A DNA stretch of 6,997 bases from Clostridia bacterium (GTDB lineage Bacteria > Bacillota_A > Clostridia > Christensenellales > Aristaeellaceae). The notes under the pieces were generated by a model. The model saw nothing but the letters and a program-made list of their open reading frames with translations. It had not been told where the DNA came from and searched no databases. The stretch is taken from contig JAGBAU010000263.1 of assembly GCA_017938785.1 (NCBI GenBank), forward strand, positions 1-6,997, read 5' to 3'. This document shows, in pieces, positions 1 to 6,997 of this stretch (the first letter of the stretch is position 1; every line of letters starts with the position of its first letter). A program made the position numbers and the translations under genes.

Positions 1-651
1 CTTGCCGATAACGGCGTCGCAGATGATTTCAACGCCCATGGCCTTCAGGTTGTCAACTTCCTTGTTGACGATGGCCTTGGGAAGACGGAACTCCGGAATG
101 CCGTAGGACAGAACGCCGCCGGCGATGTGCAGGGCTTCGTAAACGGTAACGGCATAGCCCAGGCGGGCCAGGTCGCCGGCGCAGGTGAGGCCCGCAGGGC
201 CGGCGCCGATGACGGCTACCTTGTGGCCGTTCTGTGCGGGGGCCTTGGGGGCTTCGGTGGAATGCTCACGATGCCAGTCGGCAACGAAGCGCTCCAGGCG
301 GCCGATGCCAACGGGTTCACCCTTGATGCCGCGGACGCACTTGGATTCGCACTGGGTTTCCTGGGGGCAGACGCGGCCGCAGACTGCGGGCAGGGAGGAC
401 TGCTTGTTCAGGATTTCGAAAGCGCCTTCGATGTCTTCGTTGGCGAGCTTTTCAATGAAAGCGGGGATGTCAATGCGAACGGGGCAAGCGGAAACGCAGG
501 GCTTGTTCTTGCAGTTCAGGCAGCGACGGGCCTCTTCGATGGCCATTTCATAGGTATAACCGGTAGCAACTTCCTCGAATACCTTATTGCGGTAGTTGGG
601 ATCGAGGGAGGGCATCGGGCACTTGGTGAGGGACATGTTCTTCTGTGCCAT
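1..651 (-). CDS. nfnB: NfnB: NADPH-dependent reduced ferredoxin:NAD+ oxidoreductase, large subunit (partial, C-terminus outside window)
   Basis: NfnB is the NADPH-side subunit of the cytoplasmic electron-bifurcating transhydrogenase that couples NADPH oxidation/formation to NAD+ and ferredoxin. The visible 217 residues start MAQKNMSLTKCPMPSLDPNY. A four-Cys iron-sulfur motif lies at C44, C47, C52, C56 (RRCLNCKNKPCVSACPV), and a second Cys group at C91, C95, C101, C105. Then comes the FAD dinucleotide fold VIGAGPAG (147-154) and the GGVLSYGIPEFRLPK signature (178-192) typical of the GltD/NfnB flavoprotein family. Family members are about 460 residues, so roughly half is missing past the window start. 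The ATG at 651-649 follows the nfnA stop by one base, and its GGAGG (665-661) lies inside the nfnA 3' end, indicating translational coupling. The main alternative is a glutamate synthase small subunit; pairing with nfnA argues for Nfn. Confidence 0.9.
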   Translation of the reverse strand, partial: MAQKNMSLTKCPMPSLDPNYRNKVFEEVATGYTYEMAIEEARRCLNCKNKPCVSACPVRIDIPAFIEKLANEDIEGAFEILNKQSSLPAVCGRVCPQETQCESKCVRGIKGEPVGIGRLERFVADWHREHSTEAPKAPAQNGHKVAVIGAGPAGLTCAGDLARLGYAVTVYEALHIAGGVLSYGIPEFRLPKAIVNKEVDNLKAMGVEIICDAVIGK

Positions 652-652
652 T

Positions 653-1495
653 TTATTCGACCTCCTTCTTGAGCAGGTTGCAGGTTTCCTCGCGCTTGTG
701 GGCCTCGAAATCACGGTACATTGCGCCGCGCTTCATGGCCTCGTCGAAGTCTACCAGGTGGCCGTCGAACTCGGGGCCGTCAACGCAGGCGAACTTGGTT
801 TCGCCGCCAACGGTCAGGCGGCAGCCGCCGCACATGCCGGTGCCGTCGATCATGACAGGGTTCATGGAAACGACAGTCTTGACATTGTACTTCTTGGTGG
901 TGAGGCAAACGAACTTCATCATGATGACGGGGCCGATGGCGATAACTTCGTCATAGTTCTCGCCTGCGAGGATGGCCTCCTCCAGCGGAACGGTAACGAC
1001 GCCCTGGCGGCCGTAGGAGCCGTCGTCGGTCATCATGAACAGCTTATCGGAATACTCGTTGAATTCCTTCTCGAGGATGACGAGATCCTTGCAGCGGAAG
1101 CCGACGAAGGAATGAACCTCTGCACCGGCCTCATGGAAGGCGCGGGCAACGGGCAGTGCGATGGCGCAGCCTACGCCGCCGCCAACAACAGCAACCTTCT
1201 TCTTGCCTTCGATCTGGGTGGGCTTGCCCAGGGGGCCTACGAAGTCCTGCAGGTATTCGCCTTCTTTGAGGGCGTTGAGTTCCATGGTGGTGCCGCCGAC
1301 GATCTGGAAGATGATGTCTACGGTGCCTGCTTCACGGTCGTAACCTGCGATGGTCAGCGGGATGCGCTCGCCATCTGCGCTGGTGCGCAGGATGATGAAC
1401 TGGCCGGCCTTTGCCTTCTTGGCTACCAGGGGAGCCTCGATGGACATCAGGGTGACCGTCGGGTTCAGTTCCTGCTTCTTGACGATCTTAAACAT
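653..1495 (-). CDS. nfnA: NfnA: NADPH-dependent reduced ferredoxin:NAD+ oxidoreductase, small subunit
   Basis: This is a complete 280-residue flavoprotein of the ferredoxin-NADP reductase/PyrK-like family, the NAD(H)- and FAD-binding subunit of Nfn. In order: a beta-barrel FAD domain with the RIPLTIA motif (44-50), a nucleotide-binding domain beginning VAVVGGGVGCA (101-111), and a C-terminal [2Fe-2S] site D217, C222, C225, C237 (IDGTGMCGGC, then FACVDGPEFDG). The Asp-plus-three-Cys pattern is known for the [2Fe-2S] cluster of NfnA and separates it from ordinary PyrK, which has four Cys. The start is ATG at 1495-1493 with AGAGGG (1506-1501) five bases upstream. It is first in an operon with nfnB. 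Archaeal homologues are named sulfide dehydrogenase subunits, so automated annotation may say 'sulfide/dihydroorotate dehydrogenase-like FAD/NAD-binding protein'. Confidence 0.9.
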   Translation of the reverse strand: MFKIVKKQELNPTVTLMSIEAPLVAKKAKAGQFIILRTSADGERIPLTIAGYDREAGTVDIIFQIVGGTTMELNALKEGEYLQDFVGPLGKPTQIEGKKKVAVVGGGVGCAIALPVARAFHEAGAEVHSFVGFRCKDLVILEKEFNEYSDKLFMMTDDGSYGRQGVVTVPLEEAILAGENYDEVIAIGPVIMMKFVCLTTKKYNVKTVVSMNPVMIDGTGMCGGCRLTVGGETKFACVDGPEFDGHLVDFDEAMKRGAMYRDFEAHKREETCNLLKKEVE

Positions 1496-1571
1496 AAAAT
1501 CCCTCTTCTCTGTCTACTTGGTTTGCGAAAGTATGCGTCCGGGCACAAATTGCACCCATACACTCGACAAT

Positions 1572-1600
1572 ATAGTATCATATCGCGGGTAAAAATGCAA
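1572..1600 (-). promoter_or_regulatory. Sigma-A promoter of nfnAB
   Basis: Read on the minus strand: -35 TTGCAT (1600-1595), a 17-base spacer, then -10 TACTAT (1577-1572). TG one base upstream of the -10 gives an extended -10 element. The predicted transcription start is near 1565, leaving a leader of about 70 bases before nfnA. It lies back-to-back with the aldolase promoter, the two -35 boxes being 11 bases apart. Confidence 0.75.
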
Positions 1601-1611
1601 GGGAAGAAGGC

Positions 1612-1640
1612 TTGAAGTTACGAAGGCTTTGCATTATAAT
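1612..1640 (+). promoter_or_regulatory. Sigma-A promoter of the aldolase-kinase operon
   Basis: TTGAAG (1612-1617), a 17-base spacer and a perfect TATAAT (1635-1640). The predicted start of transcription is near 1647, giving a leader of about 52 bases that contains a 10-bp palindrome and the AAGAAGGA ribosome binding site (1685-1692). Confidence 0.8.
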
Positions 1641-1670
1641 GTTGCTGGAAACCATCTTCCAACCGAATGA

Positions 1671-1680
1671 CAAACGTTTG
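1671..1680. promoter_or_regulatory. Candidate LacI-family operator palindrome
   Basis: CAAACGTTTG is a perfect 10-bp palindrome with a central CG. It sits about 25-34 bases after the predicted transcription start of the aldolase operon and just before its ribosome binding site. LacI-family regulators characteristically bind palindromes with this kind of core (the E. coli PurR operator contains the same ten bases). A roadblock or repression role is inferred from position only; no regulator gene is in the window. Confidence 0.45.
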
Positions 1681-1698
1681 AGAAAGAAGGATATTAAA

Positions 1699-2538
1699 AT
1701 GGCACTTTATACGATGAAGGAAATCCTGGCGGACGCCCAGGCGCGCAAATACGGCGTTGGCTTCTTCAACACCTTCAATATGGATATGGCCCGCGCGGTG
1801 ATCCATGCCGCCGAGGAATGCAATTCCCCCGTGATCATCGGCACCGCCGACGCCCTTTTGAAGTACGGCTCCTTTGACTGGGTGATGCCCGTTCTGCTGG
1901 AGCAGGCCCGCAAGGCCAAGGTTCCGGTGGCTGTGCATCTGGACCACGGCTACAGCTTTGACGTGATCATGCAGGCCCTGCAGGCCGGCTGCGGCTCCGT
2001 TATGTACGACGGCACCCGCGAAGCCTGCCACGAGGACAACGTGAAGAACAGCGCGCAGCTGGCCAAGATCTGCCACGCCATGGGCGTGGGCCTGGAGTGC
2101 GAGCTGGGCAGCGTCGGCGGCCTGTCCGACGAGACCGGCAACGTGGACTTCACCGCCTATACCGATCCCAACGAAGCCGCGAAGTTCATCGACCAGACCG
2201 GCGCGGACTTCCTGGCCGTTTCCATCGGCACCCAGCACGGCGTTTACAAGGCCGAGCCCAAGCTGGATCTGAACCGCCTGGCCGAAATCCACGCAGCTGT
2301 GGACGTACCGCTGGTACTGCACGGCGGCTCCGGCCTGTCCGACGACGACTTCCGCAACACCATCGCCGGCGGCATCCGCAAGGTGAACGTGTTCACCGAC
2401 ATCATCCTGGCCGCCAAGGCTGCCATCCATGCCGATGACGACGAGATCTACGGCGACGCCCTCCTGCGCGCCGAAGCTGCCATGAAGGAAGCCACGATCG
2501 CCAAGATCAAGCTCTTCGGCAGCGAAGGAAAGGCATAA
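1699..2538 (+). CDS. Class II (zinc-dependent) ketose-phosphate aldolase, GatY/KbaY/YdjI-like
   Basis: This 279-residue cytoplasmic aldolase would cleave or form a ketose (bis)phosphate using dihydroxyacetone phosphate. Visible family residues are HLDHG (80-84) with catalytic D82 and zinc ligand H83, H180 in SIGTQHGVYK, H208 in LHGGSG (zinc ligand and phosphate loop), and N230 in KVNVFTD. The C-terminal KIKLFGSEGKA resembles the end of E. coli YdjI as I remember it, more than fructose-bisphosphate aldolase proper. The start at 1699 is chosen because AAGAAGGA (1685-1692) precedes it at good spacing and MALYTMKEIL matches the usual N-terminus; the in-frame upstream extension to 1612 would include the promoter itself. 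It overlaps the regulation of the following kinase (one base between stop and next start). The true substrate cannot be read from sequence; fructose-, tagatose- or sugar-acid phosphates are all possible. Confidence 0.88.
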   Translation: MALYTMKEILADAQARKYGVGFFNTFNMDMARAVIHAAEECNSPVIIGTADALLKYGSFDWVMPVLLEQARKAKVPVAVHLDHGYSFDVIMQALQAGCGSVMYDGTREACHEDNVKNSAQLAKICHAMGVGLECELGSVGGLSDETGNVDFTAYTDPNEAAKFIDQTGADFLAVSIGTQHGVYKAEPKLDLNRLAEIHAAVDVPLVLHGGSGLSDDDFRNTIAGGIRKVNVFTDIILAAKAAIHADDDEIYGDALLRAEAAMKEATIAKIKLFGSEGKA

Positions 2539-2539
2539 C

Positions 2540-3475
2540 ATGGGCCGCCGCTTCGACGTTCTGGTGGTGGGCATGCAGGTCATCGACCTGCTGATCATGG
2601 GCGCCAGTCCCGCTGTATTCGACTGCGAAACCTTCAATTCCCCGGATATCCAGCTGCTCATGGGCGGCGACGCCCTGAACCAGGCGGTTTCCGCATCCAT
2701 GCTGGGCGGAAAGATCGGCCTGATGGGCGTGGTGGGCAACGACCGCCTGGGCGAGGTATTGCTCAGCCAGCTGGCCAACTATCCGCTCACCGTGCTCGAT
2801 CCCAAGATTGAGTCTAAGACCGGCATCTCCGTGGTGCTGTGCAAGCCCGACGGCCACCGCCACTTCATCCTGCAGTCCGGCCACAACACCCACTTCTGCT
2901 ACAAGCACATCGATGAGCAGGCCGTGCGGGATGCGAAGATCGTGTCCATCGGCAGCTGCATGGCCCTGCCGTCCTTCGACGGCGAGGATACCATCCGCCT
3001 GCTGGACCTGGCCCGCAGTGCGGGAACCGTATCCGCCATGGACATCAAGATCAACCGCAGCGAATACGACATGCCGCCCATCCTGGAATCGCTGAAGCAT
3101 GTGGATTACCTGCTGCCCAGCGAGGCCGACGTCAGGACCCTCACCGGCGAGGACGAGGATCCCGTGAAGATGGTGCAGGGCCTGCACGATATGGGCGTGA
3201 AGAATGTCATCCTGAAGCTGGGGGACAAGGGCTGCTATGTGAGCGCAGACGGCGTTGAGAAGGCCATTCCCGCCTACCCGGCCAGGAGCATCGACACCAC
3301 CGGCGCAGGCGATACCTTCACCGGCGCGTTCCTGCACGCCAAGGCGAAGGGCTGGGATGTGGAAACCTGTGCGCGCTTTGCAAACGCGGCGGGCGCCATC
3401 AGCGTGGAAGTGCCCGGCGCATGCGGCGCAATCCGCTCCGAAGCCCAGGTTCTGGAACGTATGAAGCAGATTTAA
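2540..3475 (+). CDS. PfkB-family carbohydrate kinase (ribokinase-like)
   Basis: This 311-residue ATP-dependent sugar kinase probably makes the phosphorylated substrate for the aldolase encoded just upstream. Family signatures are the substrate-binding GGDALNQA (42-49, PfkB signature 1 region), LPSEAD (192-197), LKLGDKGCYV (226-235) and DTTGAGDTFTGAF (252-264, PfkB signature 2), where D258 is the predicted catalytic base and GAG forms the anion hole. The length is normal for the family. The ATG follows the aldolase stop codon by a single base, with AAGGAAAGG at the end of the aldolase gene as ribosome binding site, so the two are translationally coupled. The motif wording (GGDALNQA, VDYLLPSEAD, ARFANAAGAISV) is reminiscent of E. 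coli YdjH, whose partner is the aldolase YdjI. Substrate is unknown; 1-phosphofructokinase or tagatose-6-phosphate kinase roles remain possible. Confidence 0.88.
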   Translation: MGRRFDVLVVGMQVIDLLIMGASPAVFDCETFNSPDIQLLMGGDALNQAVSASMLGGKIGLMGVVGNDRLGEVLLSQLANYPLTVLDPKIESKTGISVVLCKPDGHRHFILQSGHNTHFCYKHIDEQAVRDAKIVSIGSCMALPSFDGEDTIRLLDLARSAGTVSAMDIKINRSEYDMPPILESLKHVDYLLPSEADVRTLTGEDEDPVKMVQGLHDMGVKNVILKLGDKGCYVSADGVEKAIPAYPARSIDTTGAGDTFTGAFLHAKAKGWDVETCARFANAAGAISVEVPGACGAIRSEAQVLERMKQI

Positions 3476-3482
3476 GGTACAC

Positions 3483-3514
3483 AAAAAAGCGAAGCCGTGC
3501 GGCTTCGCTTTTTT
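3483..3514. terminator. Bidirectional intrinsic terminator between convergent genes
   Basis: A perfect 14-bp inverted repeat (3483-3496 and 3501-3514) has a GC core GCGAAGCC/GGCTTCGC, a GTGC loop and six A/T pairs at its base. It therefore ends in a T tract when read in either direction. It lies 8 bases after the kinase stop codon, and its right edge touches the stop codon of the minus-strand repressor gene, so it can serve both transcripts. Confidence 0.92.
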
Positions 3515-3933
3515 CATTTCATATACTTGTCGATGGCCTGGCAGAGATCGTCGATGGCCTGCTGGTCGCCTTCGCGGGCGGCGTCGATGATGCAGTGCTT
3601 CAGGTGGTCCTGCAGGATGATCTTGCCGGTGTTGTCGATGGCGCTGCGCACAGCGGCAATCTGCACCAGAACCTCGGAGCAGTCGCGGCCGTCCTCCACC
3701 ATGCGGCGCACAGATTGAAGATGCCCGATGGCGCGGCTTAAGCGGTTCAGCACGGCCTTGGTGTGTTCGTGGCTGTGGGTGTGGCCGTGGGGACCGTGTT
3801 CATGGGTATGGCCGTGTTCATGCTCATGTTCATGGCTGTGTTCATGCTCGTCGGCGGGCGTGATGCCCAGGCGCAGCATCAGCTCGCGGGCCTCATCGGC
3901 GGTGGGAATATCGTGGATGTGTTCATTTTGCAT
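3514..3933 (-). CDS. CsoR/RcnR-family metal-sensing transcriptional repressor with His-rich N-terminal extension (probable nickel sensor)
   Basis: This 139-residue protein has three parts. Residues 1-29 are a short acidic/helical segment of unknown role. Residues 30-57 hold 14 His alternating with Glu, Gly, Thr or Ser. Residues 58-139 are the all-helical DNA-binding domain of the CsoR/RcnR/FrmR family (metal-sensitive repressor, DUF156). Within it C85, H110 and C114 are the conserved X-Y-Z ligands. Counting back 32 residues, as in RcnR and InrS, puts H53 in the fourth ligand position, giving a His-Cys-His-Cys set like the nickel sensor InrS. Copper-type CsoR lacks this N-terminal His. Start: ATG at 3933-3931 is preferred because GAGGT (3945-3941) lies seven bases upstream; a GTG at 3942 in frame overlaps that site. 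It is divergent from a His-rich protein and CooT. A role in repressing those nickel genes, or itself, is inferred. Typical family members are about 85-105 residues, so the extension is unusual. Confidence 0.85.
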   Translation of the reverse strand: MQNEHIHDIPTADEARELMLRLGITPADEHEHSHEHEHEHGHTHEHGPHGHTHSHEHTKAVLNRLSRAIGHLQSVRRMVEDGRDCSEVLVQIAAVRSAIDNTGKIILQDHLKHCIIDAAREGDQQAIDDLCQAIDKYMK

Positions 3934-3940
3934 GGGCTTC

Positions 3941-3945
3941 ACCTC
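3941..3945 (-). promoter_or_regulatory. Ribosome binding site deciding the repressor start
   Basis: GAGGT on the minus strand, seven bases before the ATG at 3933-3931. A GTG at 3942-3940 in the same frame would overlap this site and has no ribosome binding site of its own at a usual distance, so the ATG is the better start. Confidence 0.7.
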
Positions 3946-3960
3946 GTTTGCTATGGCTTC

Positions 3961-3989
3961 ATTCTACGCCATGCCTGTTATTTTTGCAA
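3961..3989 (-). promoter_or_regulatory. Sigma-A promoter of the metal-sensing repressor
   Basis: On the minus strand: -35 TTGCAA (3989-3984), a 17-base spacer and -10 TAGAAT (3966-3961). The predicted start near 3954 leaves a short leader holding the GAGGT ribosome binding site. Confidence 0.65.
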
Positions 3990-3991
3990 GC

Positions 3992-4013
3992 CGGGAAGGG
4001 GGATATTTTCCCG
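3992..4013. promoter_or_regulatory. Candidate repressor operator (inverted repeat with G tract)
   Basis: Inverted repeat CGGGAA (3992-3997) and TTCCCG (4008-4013), separated by ten bases that begin with a run of five G. It lies just upstream of the repressor -35 box. CsoR/RcnR-family operators commonly contain G/C tracts flanked by inverted repeats, so autoregulation is plausible, but the match is generic. Confidence 0.3.
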
Positions 4014-4070
4014 AAACTGTTTCAATTCTGCCCCGAAGGGTGATAAGAAAACGGCGGGATGCGTATCTCT

Positions 4071-4099
4071 TTGACAAATGCGCCCGCTTGCGGTATAAT
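4071..4099 (+). promoter_or_regulatory. Perfect-consensus sigma-A promoter of the His-rich protein/cooT genes
   Basis: TTGACA (4071-4076), a 17-base spacer and TATAAT (4094-4099): consensus at all twelve positions. The spacer ends in CCGCTTGCGG (4084-4093), a palindrome with a two-base centre abutting the -10 box and a possible repressor-binding site. A promoter this strong normally needs a repressor, which fits the divergent metal sensor. Predicted start is near 4106; AAGGAGA (4127-4133) is the downstream ribosome binding site. Confidence 0.88.
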
Positions 4100-4140
4100 C
4101 TTCAGCAGCAAACCACTATATACTGTAAGGAGATAGAAAA

Positions 4141-4482
4141 ATGCACGATCACGATTATATGCATGCCCACGGCATCGAACATAGCCATGACCACGATCAC
4201 GATCATCACCACGATCATGACCATCATCACGACCACTGCCACGAGGGCTGCGACCACGATTGCGCAGGCTGCGCTTCCGCCGATCCCAAGGCGGAGCTGG
4301 TTGCCCTGATGAAGTACATGGTGGGCCACAACGCAGCCCACGCAAACGAACTGGCCCAGCTGGCCGGCAAACTGAAGGACATGGGCGAGGCCGTTGCCTA
4401 TGAGCAGGTCATGAGCGCCGTTTCCGATTTCGAAAAGGGCAACATGCGCCTGTCCACCGTGCTGGCCGCACTGAACGTCTGA
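4141..4482 (+). CDS. His/Asp/Cys-rich small metal-binding protein, probable nickel storage or chaperone (CooJ-like in concept)
   Basis: This 113-residue protein has two parts. Residues 1-44 contain 18 His, mostly alternating with Asp, plus four Cys (C33, C37, C41, C44). Residues 49-113 look all-helical, probably a two- or three-helix bundle, with a further HNAAH pair (H63, H67) one helical turn apart. There is no signal peptide or membrane segment, so it should be cytoplasmic. It starts at ATG 4141, eight bases after AAGGAG, and is followed by cooT after 16 bases. The His-rich part could bind several Ni(II) or Zn(II). Rhodospirillum rubrum CooJ, a nickel-binding protein of the CO dehydrogenase cluster, is similar in size but has its His tail at the C-terminus, so this is an analogy and not a demonstrated homology. 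Automated names such as 'cobalt' or 'zinc transporter' would be misleading, as no transmembrane helix is visible. Confidence 0.8.
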   Translation: MHDHDYMHAHGIEHSHDHDHDHHHDHDHHHDHCHEGCDHDCAGCASADPKAELVALMKYMVGHNAAHANELAQLAGKLKDMGEAVAYEQVMSAVSDFEKGNMRLSTVLAALNV

Positions 4483-4498
4483 CTGGAGGAATAATACT

Positions 4499-4693
4499 AT
4501 GTGTCTGTCCACCGTCTATAAGAATGAAAAAGCGCCTGAGAACGTGGTTCTGGGCAATGTGATGCGCATTACCTGCGAAAACGGCGTGGTGACCCTCACC
4601 GATATCATGGGCCGCGAAGCGGTTGTCGAGGGTGAAATCCTGTCCGCAGACCTGACCGGCGGCACCGTGGTTGTGAAGACCAAGGCAAGCTGA
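4499..4693 (+). CDS. cooT: CooT-family nickel-binding protein
   Basis: This 64-residue protein begins MCLSTVY, continues with a predicted small beta-barrel (NVVLGNVMRITCENGVVTL at 15-33; ILSADLTGGTVVVK at 47-60) and fits the CooT family in length (about 60-70 residues) and layout. In R. rubrum, CooT is a dimer that binds Ni(II) through the conserved Cys2 and takes part in nickel delivery to CO dehydrogenase; Cys2 is present here. GGAGG (4485-4489) precedes the ATG by nine bases. It is in an operon behind the His-rich protein and is followed at once by an intrinsic terminator, then by cooC and acs genes. Older annotations of this family as 'RNA-binding protein' are based on fold resemblance. 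Confidence 0.85.
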   Translation: MCLSTVYKNEKAPENVVLGNVMRITCENGVVTLTDIMGREAVVEGEILSADLTGGTVVVKTKAS

Positions 4694-4702
4694 TGACTGA
4701 AT

Positions 4703-4734
4703 GCCGATGTGCCGGAAGGTGCGTCGGCTTTTTT
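4703..4734 (+). terminator. Intrinsic terminator after cooT
   Basis: Stem 4703-4713 and 4718-4728 (eleven pairs counting G-U) closes on a GGAA tetraloop and is followed by six T (4729-4734). It starts nine bases after the cooT stop codon. The next gene's ribosome binding site begins only two bases after the T tract, so any transcript of that gene from the upstream promoter must read through this structure. Confidence 0.85.
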
Positions 4735-4748
4735 ATGGAGGGAAAGTT

Positions 4749-4979
4749 ATGGCCTGGTATGAAGTGGTTCGGGAGATTCAGAACAGCTGCGAGCGCAACC
4801 AGATGCGGGATGTGTTTTTCGATGAAATCGAAACCGATGATCCCATGGAGGCCGTGCGCGGCATGCTGAAGGATGAAACGAATCCTGTGCTCACGATGCA
4901 GGTGCTCAATGAGGAAAGCTTTACCATTTACGCCGAATGCAGCGGCATCAACCAGCGGTTTCTTTTCACCAAAATTTGA
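4749..4979 (+). CDS. Unrecognised 76-residue cytoplasmic protein in the nickel/CODH region
   Basis: I do not recognise this protein with confidence. It starts MAWYEVVREIQNSCERNQMR and has no signal peptide or membrane segment. The charge pattern suggests an N-terminal helix, an acidic stretch FFDEIETDDP (24-32), a second short helix, then beta strands (VLTMQVL, SFTIYAEC) and an ending INQRFLFTKI. Two Cys are present (C14, C64). The ATG at 4749 is preferred because GGAGGGAAAG (4737-4746) precedes it; the frame stays open further upstream, but that part lies in the terminator hairpin. It lies between cooT and cooC on the same strand, which suggests a role in CODH/ACS biogenesis by association only. 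No promoter of its own was clear. Confidence 0.7.
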   Translation: MAWYEVVREIQNSCERNQMRDVFFDEIETDDPMEAVRGMLKDETNPVLTMQVLNEESFTIYAECSGINQRFLFTKI

Positions 4980-5010
4980 CATAAATGTGCCCGATTCATA
5001 AATGCAGAGC

Positions 5011-5039
5011 TTGCAAGTGCGCAGCTTTTGTGATATTAT
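5011..5039 (+). promoter_or_regulatory. Sigma-A promoter of cooC-acsD-acsC
   Basis: TTGCAA (5011-5016), a 17-base spacer and -10 TATTAT (5034-5039), with TG one base upstream giving an extended -10. The predicted start of transcription is near 5046, directly at the foot of a leader stem-loop. An overlapping TATAAT three bases later has a poorer spacing. Confidence 0.7.
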
Positions 5040-5047
5040 AATAATAG

Positions 5048-5087
5048 CGTTCAGGTGGAGTATACTATTTACTTCGCCGCGTGAACG
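5048..5087 (+). promoter_or_regulatory. 5' leader stem-loop before cooC
   Basis: Outer arms CGTTCA (5048-5053) and TGAACG (5082-5087) pair perfectly. Inner arms GGTGGAGTA (5054-5062) and TACTTCGCC (5070-5078) pair over nine positions with two G-U pairs, closing on a seven-base loop. The only interruption is a three-base bulge, GCG (5079-5081). No T tract follows, so it is not a terminator. It ends four bases before the AGGAG ribosome binding site (5092-5096). It could stabilise the mRNA, modulate translation, or act at DNA level as a repeat for a regulator; it does not match a riboswitch I know. Confidence 0.6.
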
Positions 5088-5102
5088 GAATAGGAGCAGA
5101 AA

Positions 5103-5873
5103 ATGACACACACCATTGCAGTTGCCGGAAAGGGCGGCGTCGGCAAGACGACCACCTGCGGCATGTTGATCGACCTGCTTTGCAGCCAGCGTAAAACCCC
5201 CATCCTGGTGGTGGACGCGGATGCAAATTCCAATCTGAACGAAGTGCTGGGCGTGGAGGTTGAAACCACGCTGGGCGATATTCGTGAGGAAATGGCGCGC
5301 GCTGAAATGATGAAGAACAGCCCCATTCCTGCGGGCATGACCAAGGCGGACTATGCCGAAATGAAGTTTTCCTCGGCTCTGATCGAAGATGACGATTTCG
5401 ACATGCTCGTCATGGGCAGAACCCAGGGCAAGGGCTGCTATTGCTACGTCAACGGCGTGCTGACCTCCCAGATGAACAAGTACTACGGCAATTACCGCTA
5501 CATGGTGATTGACAATGAGGCCGGCCTCGAGCACATCAGCCGCGGCGTTCTGCCTCATGTGGACACCCTTCTGCTCATCAGCGACTGTTCCCGCCGCGGC
5601 ATTCAGGCCGTAGCGCGCATCGCTGAAATGGTTCGGGATTTGGATCTCAAGCCCGGCCAGATGAAACTGATCGTCAACCGTGCGCCCGGCGGACAGCTGA
5701 ACGCTGCGGTTCTCGAAGAGATTGAAAAGCATGGCCTTGACCTGGTCGGCGTTCTCCCGCAGGATGATACCGTTTTCGAGTATGACTGCGAGGGCAAGCC
5801 CAGCGCCAAGGTGCCCGACACCAACCCGGTGAAGGTCGCGCTGACTTCAATCATGGCAAAACTCGGACTTTAA
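5103..5873 (+). CDS. cooC: CooC/AcsF-type ATPase, nickel-insertion factor for CO dehydrogenase/acetyl-CoA synthase
   Basis: This 256-residue P-loop ATPase of the MinD/ParA (SIMIBI) class assists nickel incorporation into CODH or ACS. Motifs in order: deviant Walker A GKGGVGKTT (9-17) with the signature Lys at position 10, switch I VVDADANSNL (36-45), the CooC-specific CxC pair C112/C114 in GKGCYCYVNGVL (the metal site at the dimer interface), and a Walker B/switch II region MVIDNEAGLEHISRG (134-148). Length fits CooC (about 250-265). The start ATG 5103 has AGGAG (5092-5096) six bases upstream. It lies 20 bases before acsD in what looks like one operon. Position beside acsD/acsC suggests the acetogen AcsF role in ACS maturation; CooC1-type work on CODH cannot be excluded, as the subtypes are not separable by eye. 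Confidence 0.92.
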   Translation: MTHTIAVAGKGGVGKTTTCGMLIDLLCSQRKTPILVVDADANSNLNEVLGVEVETTLGDIREEMARAEMMKNSPIPAGMTKADYAEMKFSSALIEDDDFDMLVMGRTQGKGCYCYVNGVLTSQMNKYYGNYRYMVIDNEAGLEHISRGVLPHVDTLLLISDCSRRGIQAVARIAEMVRDLDLKPGQMKLIVNRAPGGQLNAAVLEEIEKHGLDLVGVLPQDDTVFEYDCEGKPSAKVPDTNPVKVALTSIMAKLGL

Positions 5874-5893
5874 CGACATAGGGGGATACGATT

Positions 5894-6838
5894 ATGGCTT
5901 TTACTCCGAAGAAGCAGGCATACAACGCTTCCATCAATGCCCTGGAACTGGGCGTAGGTGAGAAGAAGATCGTTGTCGGCGGCGAGAACGTTTTCCCGTT
6001 CTTCACCTTCGACGCACCGATCGCCAATGCACCCAAGATCGCTATCGAGATCAGCGATAAGGGCATGGCAGCACTCCAGACTCCCGGCATGAAGGCAGCT
6101 TTCGAAGGCTGCGTTACCGTTGCCGACATGGCCAAGAAGGCTGAGGAAATCGAAGGCGTTTCCGCAGTTTGCCTGTACTTCGAATCCGCAGATCCCAACG
6201 GCGACAACATGTCCGTTGAAGAGTGCGTAGAAATCGCCAAGGCTGCTGCTGATGCAACCGCCCTGCCGATCATCATCATGGGCTGCAAGAACATCGAAAA
6301 GGATGCCGAAATCTTCAATAAGGTTTCCGACGCCCTGCAGGGCAAGAACATCCTGGTTCTGGCTGCACGCGAAGAAAACTACAAGACCGTCGGCGCTTCC
6401 GCCGGCATGGCCTACAACCAGAAGGTTGGCGCAGAATCCGCTGTTGACATCAACCTGGCCAAGCAGCTCAACGTTCTGCTTTCTCAGCTGGGCGTACCCG
6501 CTCAGTCCGTCGCCATGAACCTGGGCTCTTCCTGCGCAGGCTACGGCTACGAATACCTCTCTTCCACCCTGGACCGCGTTAAGGCTGCTGCCCTGGCTCA
6601 GAACGACGCTCAGCTGCAGATGCCCATCGTGACCCCCGTCTCCACCGAGACCTGGAACGTTAAGGAAGCCATGCTTTCCGAAGAAGAGGCTCCGGAATGG
6701 GGCGACGTTGAAGAGCGCGGCATCGAAATGGAAATCACCACCGCAGCTGCTAGCCTGACCAGCGGCTCCGATATGGTTATCATGAAGCATCCCGCTGCCA
6801 TCGCAACCATCGCAAAGTTCATCGACAGCCTGATGTAA
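5894..6838 (+). CDS. acsD: Acetyl-CoA decarbonylase/synthase delta subunit: corrinoid iron-sulfur protein small subunit
   Basis: AcsD (CdhD-type) forms a heterodimer with AcsC; together they hold the cobamide and carry the methyl group from methyltetrahydrofolate (via the AcsE methyltransferase) to acetyl-CoA synthase. The 314-residue protein has the usual length and a TIM-barrel-like alternation of strands and helices. Recognisable segments are YFESADPNGDN (95-105), IIIMGCKN (126-133), SVAMNLGSSCAGYGYEY (205-221) and DMVIMKHPAA (293-302). It contains no cluster-binding Cys set, as expected for this subunit. The ATG at 5894 follows AGGGGGAT after the cooC stop; acsC starts 22 bases downstream with no terminator between. 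The codons seem biased towards a restricted set, as in highly expressed genes (an impression, not a calculation). Confidence 0.93.
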   Translation: MAFTPKKQAYNASINALELGVGEKKIVVGGENVFPFFTFDAPIANAPKIAIEISDKGMAALQTPGMKAAFEGCVTVADMAKKAEEIEGVSAVCLYFESADPNGDNMSVEECVEIAKAAADATALPIIIMGCKNIEKDAEIFNKVSDALQGKNILVLAAREENYKTVGASAGMAYNQKVGAESAVDINLAKQLNVLLSQLGVPAQSVAMNLGSSCAGYGYEYLSSTLDRVKAAALAQNDAQLQMPIVTPVSTETWNVKEAMLSEEEAPEWGDVEERGIEMEITTAAASLTSGSDMVIMKHPAAIATIAKFIDSLM

Positions 6839-6860
6839 GCTGGGAAGGGAGATAAAAACA

Positions 6861-6997
6861 ATGGCACTCAAAGGTCTTGATATTTTTAAGCTGACTCCTA
6901 AAAAGAATTGTAAGGAATGCGGCAACCCCACTTGCATGGCTTTCGCTATGAAGGTTGCTCAGGGCGCAGTTTCCATCGATAAGTGCCCCTACATGTC
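6861..6997 (+). CDS. acsC: Acetyl-CoA decarbonylase/synthase gamma subunit: corrinoid iron-sulfur protein large subunit (partial, 5' end)
   Basis: Only the first 45 codons are in the window. They start MALKGLDIFKLTPKKNC and contain the N-terminal four-Cys motif C17, C20, C25, C42 (CKECGNPTCMAFA, then DKCPYM) that binds the [4Fe-4S] cluster used for reductive activation of the cobamide. This pattern is diagnostic of AcsC/CdhE. GGGAAGGGAGA (6842-6852) precedes the ATG by eight bases. The rest (family length near 440-450 residues), including the cobamide-binding C-terminal domain, lies beyond the window end, probably followed by further acs genes. Confidence 0.93.
   Translation, partial: MALKGLDIFKLTPKKNCKECGNPTCMAFAMKVAQGAVSIDKCPYM

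Follow-up and report, generated by a model that had tools for sequence, protein, structure and literature searches.

We describe a divergent gene unit from an uncultured Clostridia bacterium of the family Aristaeellaceae, found in a stretch of 6,997 nucleotides (contig JAGBAU010000263.1, positions 1 to 6,997; hereafter the window). A gene for a CsoR/RcnR-family sensor, csoR, stands back to back with genes for a His-rich protein, here called HisR, and for a protein of the CooT family, upstream of genes of the acs locus, which belongs with the carbon monoxide dehydrogenase/acetyl-CoA synthase (CODH/ACS) system. Comparisons with related genomes suggest that csoR/hisR-cooT is a nickel-sensing and nickel-handling unit under its own sensor, and that in close relatives it belongs to a nickel regulon that includes CODH and uptake by ATP-binding cassette (ABC) transporters. 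The sequence-only reading of this DNA had listed seven genes in the order given below, and all seven are found there, with profile matches for the sensor, CooT, AcsD, AcsC and the CooC-like protein.

3514..3942, minus strand: csoR, CsoR/RcnR-family sensor (PF02583, 96 bits against a cut-off of 22.8)
4141..4482, plus strand: hisR, His-rich protein of 113 residues, 20 of them His (PF26551, a precomputed protein-database domain)
4499..4693, plus strand: cooT, CooT family (PF10133, 65.1 bits against a cut-off of 27), with a Met-Cys start
4749..4979, plus strand: protein of 76 residues, no family matched
5103..5873, plus strand: cooC-like, MinD-type ATPase (CbiA and AAA_31 matches; CYC motif)
5894..6838, plus strand: acsD, corrinoid protein small subunit (NF040759, 451 bits against a cut-off of 430)
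6861..6997, plus strand: acsC, first part, corrinoid protein large subunit (PF04060 and PRK04165 matches)

CooC proteins are MinD-like P-loop ATPases with a CXC motif. Both GKGGVGKTT and CYC can be read in the product of 5103..5873, which is probably CooC-like, either CooC or AcsF. The Cys residue that directly follows the initiator Met of CooT is found in 30 of 30 aligned CooT sequences. Only the first 45 residues of AcsC lie within the window, and the nearest relative of its AcsD is 91% identical, in locus L001 (L and G denote our serial numbers for loci and genomes). An Rfam scan of the window gave no match at gathering thresholds.

The sensor comprises a His-rich N-terminal tail (residues 1–60) and a DUF156 core (residues 61–139), and its nearest solved relative is InrS, the nickel sensor of Synechocystis (E 7.4e-26). 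Mapped on to InrS, the W-X-Y-Z ligands correspond with His56, Cys88, His113 and Cys117, the same His-Cys-His-Cys set, and are invariant in 13 sensors, as is Asp87 at the 'A' position; the Tyr of the Cu(I) CsoR proteins is not present. InrS likewise has several N-terminal histidines and a non-Tyr 'A' position (PMC4235346). RcnR proteins are defined by a His at the 'Z' position and a RASK motif (PMC4235346, PMC3902906), whereas this sensor has Cys117 and RLSR, the latter being the RLxR motif of type 2 operator binders. The likeness to InrS has its limits: the sensor here has a long His-rich tail of the kind that carries a YMHxHxIPH motif, its gene adjoins hisR-cooT and not nrsD (no nrsD query was run), and neither InrS glutamate is kept, Glu95 (the 'C' position) aligning with Ala129 and Glu98 with Asp132.

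The genomic neighbours of related sensors point in the same direction. Sensor scores across 391 sampled genomes of the class are bimodal: 25 places, spread over 23 genomes, exceed 100 bits, and the others, among the matches listed, reach at most 86 bits. Two of the 25 places are module loci, and the neighbours of the remaining 23 were inspected: NikA/NikB adjoin four, CbiM five, a NuoL/hydrogenase-type membrane subunit five (a class defined by the membrane subunit only, as no hydrogenase large subunit was looked for) and FmdE/FecCD three, with none of these types beside six, one of which lies near FeoB. NikA/NikB, CbiM or a hydrogenase/Nuo-type subunit is found beside 14 of these 23 close homologues and beside 0 of 20 weaker ones. 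CooT is also present in 10 of the 23 genomes with a sensor above 100 bits, and genome G001 has a second member of the sensor subfamily beside a NikA-like gene. A member scoring at least 140 bits occurs in 11 of 11 further acs genomes, compared with the 23 of 391 class genomes above 100 bits. The sensor tree, which rests on few alignment columns and leaves its deep forks open, places 11 of 12 acs sequences in one clade together with the NikA-side paralogue of G001, and the sensor of the distant genome G510 (locus L123) falls outside it. Nickel is the likeliest metal of the sensor, because InrS is the nearest solved relative, the ligand set with its Asp is invariant and the neighbours are of nickel type.

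Two other assignments of the metal have to be weighed here. AcsC and AcsD are corrinoid proteins, which contain cobalt, so the sensor could answer to cobalt, or to nickel and cobalt, and tie these genes rather than CODH maturation to metal supply; CbiM adjoins 5 of the 23 close homologues, and RcnR, a relative, senses both metals (PMC4235346). Set against this are the ligands, which are those of nickel-binding InrS, the nickel-binding CooT of Rhodospirillum rubrum (PMC6006190), the NikA/NikB-type genes beside 4 of the 23 homologues and at three of the DNA sites described below, and the position of such a site before CODH, a nickel enzyme; we consider an answer to cobalt improbable. Equally improbable, in our view, is an ordinary copper, zinc or formaldehyde repressor of the CsoR family that lies beside nickel genes by chance or hitch-hiking, even though CsoR too uses Cys-His-Cys as its copper ligands and tight in vitro binding of Cu(I) and Zn(II) is reported for InrS (PMC4235346). 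Asp replaces the copper-type Tyr in 13 of 13 sensors, and a copper-type ATPase stands beside 0 of the 23 close homologues, as against 7 of the 20 next-ranked weaker ones. Chance or hitch-hiking fits poorly with a unit that is found again at places away from acs. Most genomes, moreover, hold another PF02583 member that could serve copper: among 13 genomes searched, a second member exceeds the cut-off in ten, a second or third is found in two more, and G004 has only one.

Recurrence of the unit was assessed in a survey of 80 AcsD loci, of which the 61 with at least 5 kb of upstream sequence were counted and the other 19 dropped. The complete trio of sensor, HisR and CooT is present in 17 of the 20 loci whose AcsD is at least 72% identical to that of the window, in 0 of 4 at 65–71% identity and in 0 of 37 below 65%. 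The trio is also complete in L022 and L026, which have shorter upstream sequence. In the kind of neighbourhood survey that the sequence-only reading had proposed, repressor, His-rich protein and cooT are thus seen together beside acs in close relatives; the arrangement is not peculiar to this genome, and since it recurs in 17 of 20 close loci the order of sensor, His-rich protein and CooT is more than chance.

Three close loci are exceptions. Loci L013 and L016 have no sensor, yet their genomes hold the unit elsewhere (G774 in L217, G393 in L132). Locus L057 of G351 retains hisR-cooT without a sensor, and there the HisR tail has few histidines and HNxxH has become QNxxR; we count this as a probable natural loss, in favour of a nickel unit. 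The same genome has a second His-rich copy on another contig (L133, L134) besides the degenerate HisR. Detached units are seen in four genomes, G774, G775, G782 and G783, with no match to the CooC model in those stretches. The distant genome G510 carries the trio on one strand, downstream of acsD-acsC-acsE. Among the acs genomes G776–G781 and G784 no recognised CooT adjoins the sensor, and G777 gives a weak HisR match. HisR is found in 10 and CooT in 43 of the 391 sampled class genomes, and in 8 of the 10 HisR genomes the two adjoin, as judged by coordinates. CODH itself lies outside the module: where matched, in 12 of 13 genomes, it is on another contig or at least 15 kb away. A metF-like gene, named from a frame of L071 read by eye, stands upstream of AcsD in 16 of the 20 close loci.

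Several further arrangements were observed around these genes. A conserved protein of 138–139 residues, which we take to be DUF3842, is encoded directly 3' of cooT in L105 and L129. In L115 and L117 two matches to the AcsB query flank a His-rich open frame, with cooT nearby, and protein P0069 (116 residues) combines the PF26551 core of HisR with PF10133 of CooT, a possible fusion.

HisR has a His-rich N-terminal tail with the motif YMHAHGIEH, followed by a helical core with a conserved HNxxH. The core is predicted to fold as a two-helix hairpin (predicted local distance difference test, pLDDT, 92), with no match in the PDB at E 0.001 or better. A YMHxHxIPH-like motif near the N-terminus is common to HisR and the sensor. 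Its 32 matches among 8194 open frames of 81 loci all lie in hisR or sensor genes, and a search with it as a DNA pattern gave 2 matching genomes among 297 of the order, hisR and the sensor gene having one copy each in both. Nine chosen genomes have it in both genes (five), in HisR only (one) or in neither (three). Across 23 loci, after removal of 13 locus identifiers that duplicate genomes in the count, the motif is present in 16 sensors and 19 HisR proteins, and in both at 14; shuffled tails reproduce the motif in at most 0.075% of cases. The window itself has the motif in HisR only, its sensor copy being degenerate, and similar tails are seen on sensors with no adjoining HisR (G778, G779, G780, G781, G784). 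The shared motif probably goes back to common descent.

Divergent promoters and candidate operators occupy the intergenic region 3943–4140, and a terminator-like hairpin follows cooT:

4071..4099, plus strand: hisR promoter, TTGACA-17-TATAAT, 12/12 sigma-70-type
3961..3989, minus strand: csoR promoter-like site, TTGCAA-17-TAGAAT, 9/12, weaker and divergent
3990..4005, unstranded: candidate operator 1, GCC-N5-GGGGGATA exact, abutting the csoR -35 element
4030..4045, unstranded: candidate operator 2, GCC-N5-GGGGGATA with one mismatch, 40 bp from operator 1
4703..4734, plus strand: terminator-like hairpin, 11 pairs at 4703–4728 followed by T6, between cooT and the gene for the 76-residue protein
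5011..5039, plus strand: promoter-like site before cooC, 9/12, weak

Comparable sites are found for the hisR promoter in 21 of 22 loci, the window included, and for the csoR promoter in 16 of 22. The intergenic region contains five promoter-like sites against 2.6 in shuffled sequence, so that only the 12/12 hisR promoter stands out alone. For the two G-tract sites, 0.13 are expected at up to one mismatch and 0 of 200 shuffles reach two; they place candidate operators in 3943–4140, the region that the sequence-only reading had named for binding by the repressor. A leave-one-out matrix of hisR sites, trained on sites from the same alignment of related loci, gives operator 1 as the top match in the window, and for 16 of 20 loci its highest-scoring position anywhere in the locus is the site upstream of hisR; a second match common to L015, L017 and L068 was discarded because it falls within a coding sequence, judged by eye to be folC. 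At up to two mismatches GCC-N5-GGGGGATA occurs in 13 of 22 loci, at 2.6 per kb against 0.43 elsewhere. A copy of the strict form CCCC-N5-GGGG stands upstream of hisR in 15 of 22 loci, its frequency elsewhere being 0.04 per 230 bp.

The same pattern leads beyond the module, to CODH and nickel-type ABC transporter genes, which the sequence-only reading had not linked to the sensor. The evidence upstream of CODH is drawn from related genomes, not from the window's own. A promoter of the form TTGAC[TA]-17-TAAAAT precedes CODH in 8 of 9 genomes with CODH upstream sequence, and an exact site stands just before it in 6 of the 9 (G001–G005 and G273); G774 adds another, placed by coordinates, to give 7 of 10 assessable close genomes. 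Over the 3.9 Mb of G001 the pattern matches exactly at one place only, upstream of CODH. Ten whole genomes contain 23 exact matches, compared with 10 for the reversed control: six before CODH, one upstream of csoR (G380), three before nickel-type ABC operons and one before a gene for a FAD/FMN protein, the remaining 12 having no recognised nickel genes. The ABC operons are those of G273 and G004, in which NikA-like scores lie below and NikB-like scores just below the curated cut-offs, and of G005, in which NikB-like exceeds its cut-off. An exact site is found just upstream of csoR in G783 as well.

Two further genes near such sites and sensors were noted. The FAD/FMN gene, secreted-looking and reductase-like, begins 29 bp after the exact site L194:4039 of G005. 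Genes for AstE/AspA-type enzymes occur at L151:6644-7615, beside a sensor and a NikB-type gene, and at L198:4295-5266 in another genome, beside a site and a NikA-like gene.

Another regulator, or promoter architecture, could be behind the sites that precede CODH and the nik genes, with the sensor controlling only itself and hisR-cooT. Such a division would account for the poor transfer of a matrix trained on CODH sites, for which the hisR operator is the top match in no more than 5 of 22 loci, its choice in the window being the promoter spacer, and for distant acs genomes that have the sensor and no exact site before CODH. The exact pattern, however, lies upstream of csoR in the window, G380 and G783 as well as before CODH and the nik genes, and G-tract pseudopalindromes are a known type of operator for RLxR members (PMC3902906). 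We regard this division as possible, though on balance unlikely.

Further observations weigh against a nickel regulon under this sensor. The window does not have the strict CCCC-N5-GGGG form, and that form lies near 2 of 23 other subfamily members as against 3 of 20 weaker homologues. No exact CODH site is found in the close genomes G007 and G393, and that of G318 is only partial; before whole CODH genes in more distant acs genomes the count is 0 of 8, although the sensor is present. Many of the 23 neighbour cases are kin and so not independent, CbiM, beside five of them, can serve cobalt, and Cys/His fingerprints are reported to fail as predictors of the metal in the CsoR/RcnR family (PMC4235346). 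Taking these points into account, we give a probability of about 0.7 to csoR/hisR-cooT being a nickel-sensing and nickel-handling unit under its own sensor and, in close relatives, part of a nickel regulon with CODH and ABC uptake.

The notion of a nickel module therefore stands as far as the recurrent unit and its likeliest metal are concerned; a continuous line to AcsC is not supported. A single operon down to acsC is rejected on account of the hairpin after cooT and the spread of the gene for the 76-residue protein, which is found without nickel genes; the detached units of four genomes also speak against one supply line. The hairpin at 4703–4728 has a stability z of -3.6, with 1 of 200 shuffles equally stable, and hisR-cooT is probably a separate transcription unit in the window. 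A scripted scan finds a hairpin and T run at this position in 6 of 23 loci, namely the window, L003 (weak), L004, L010, L018 and L135, so it is not universal. The 76-residue protein has 259 relatives, with Cys14 and NQMRD invariant, and a predicted mixed sheet-helix fold (pLDDT 89) with no PDB match at E 0.001 or better. Its gene occurs in acs loci both with and without CooT, the His-rich protein and the sensor; it is associated with the acs locus rather than with nickel.

For the csoR/hisR-cooT unit we propose the following mechanism. An InrS-like, His-tailed sensor would bind the G-tract sites between the divergent promoters and control both itself and hisR-cooT; sites of the same kind before CODH and nickel-type ABC operons would extend this to a nickel regulon in close relatives. 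By analogy with InrS, in which nickel binding releases the protein from DNA (PMC7055735), nickel would be the effector: the nickel-free sensor would hold the divergent promoters, and its release on binding nickel would allow HisR, CooT and, in this clade, CODH to be made when nickel is at hand. HisR, with its His-rich tail and HNxxH hairpin, may buffer nickel, CooT may pass it on and CooC may drive its insertion. The sign of control may be opposite at uptake genes, since InrS is also reported to enhance nik expression (PMC7055735). Given the N-terminal motif, presumably nickel-binding, that the sensor has in common with the chaperone, we offer, more tentatively and as something that we think rather doubtful, that one His-tailed sensor sets CODH, HisR-CooT and nickel uptake together and reads not free nickel but the chaperone-held pool, by exchange or competition; the shared tail may reflect the reading of one nickel pool.

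Parts of this arrangement have precedents. The pairing of a His-rich protein with CooT in acetogens is already in print: in Clostridium autoethanogenum such a pair, hp and CooT (nbp), lies beside the Wood-Ljungdahl cluster, deletion of either gene affected growth, and the pair is said to be conserved with Wood-Ljungdahl genes among acetogens (PMC10230548). No regulator is described there in the available text of that source, whereas the unit here has a divergent sensor and a shared tail motif. R. rubrum similarly combines a CooT-family protein, a small His-rich protein (CooJ) and a CooC-type ATPase, as found here near the CODH/ACS locus; unlike CooJ, in which the His-rich part is reported as C-terminal (PMC6006190), HisR has it at the N-terminus, and a CsoR-family sensor is added. 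Kinship of HisR to CooJ is not established by sequence, no protein named CooJ appearing among 31 PDB sequences at E ≤10 with the HisR core profile, in a search in which R. rubrum CooJ itself was not compared. The CsoR of Streptomyces lividans shares the RLxR motif and a pseudopalindrome of G tracts 5 bases apart, and differs as a copper sensor with copZA targets and TAC/GTA flanks (PMC3902906), the flanks here being A/T-rich in another way. A 2026 survey places CooT and CooJ in some clade E and F operons, with no CsoR/RcnR in its main text (PMC13056359).

The rest of the window, positions 1–3475, carries on its minus strand two NAD(P)-type flavoprotein genes (one of the PRK06222 family and a partial partner), followed by genes for a class II aldolase and a PfkB-type kinase. 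A hairpin with a T tail at 3483–3514 separates csoR from these genes.

The key enzyme of acetogenesis, CODH/ACS, requires nickel. We found no nickel-responsive regulator of CODH/ACS in Clostridia in the open-licence literature, as far as the available text of these sources goes (cf. PMC10134865, PMC3519856, PMC9040625, PMC11247825), and for one acetogen strain the import and export systems behind nickel homeostasis are described as still awaiting identification (PMC10134865). A tail common to sensor and chaperone points to a means by which a cell could sense metal held by a chaperone. With a sensor, its probable DNA site and a few target genes now named, the question of such control becomes directly testable.

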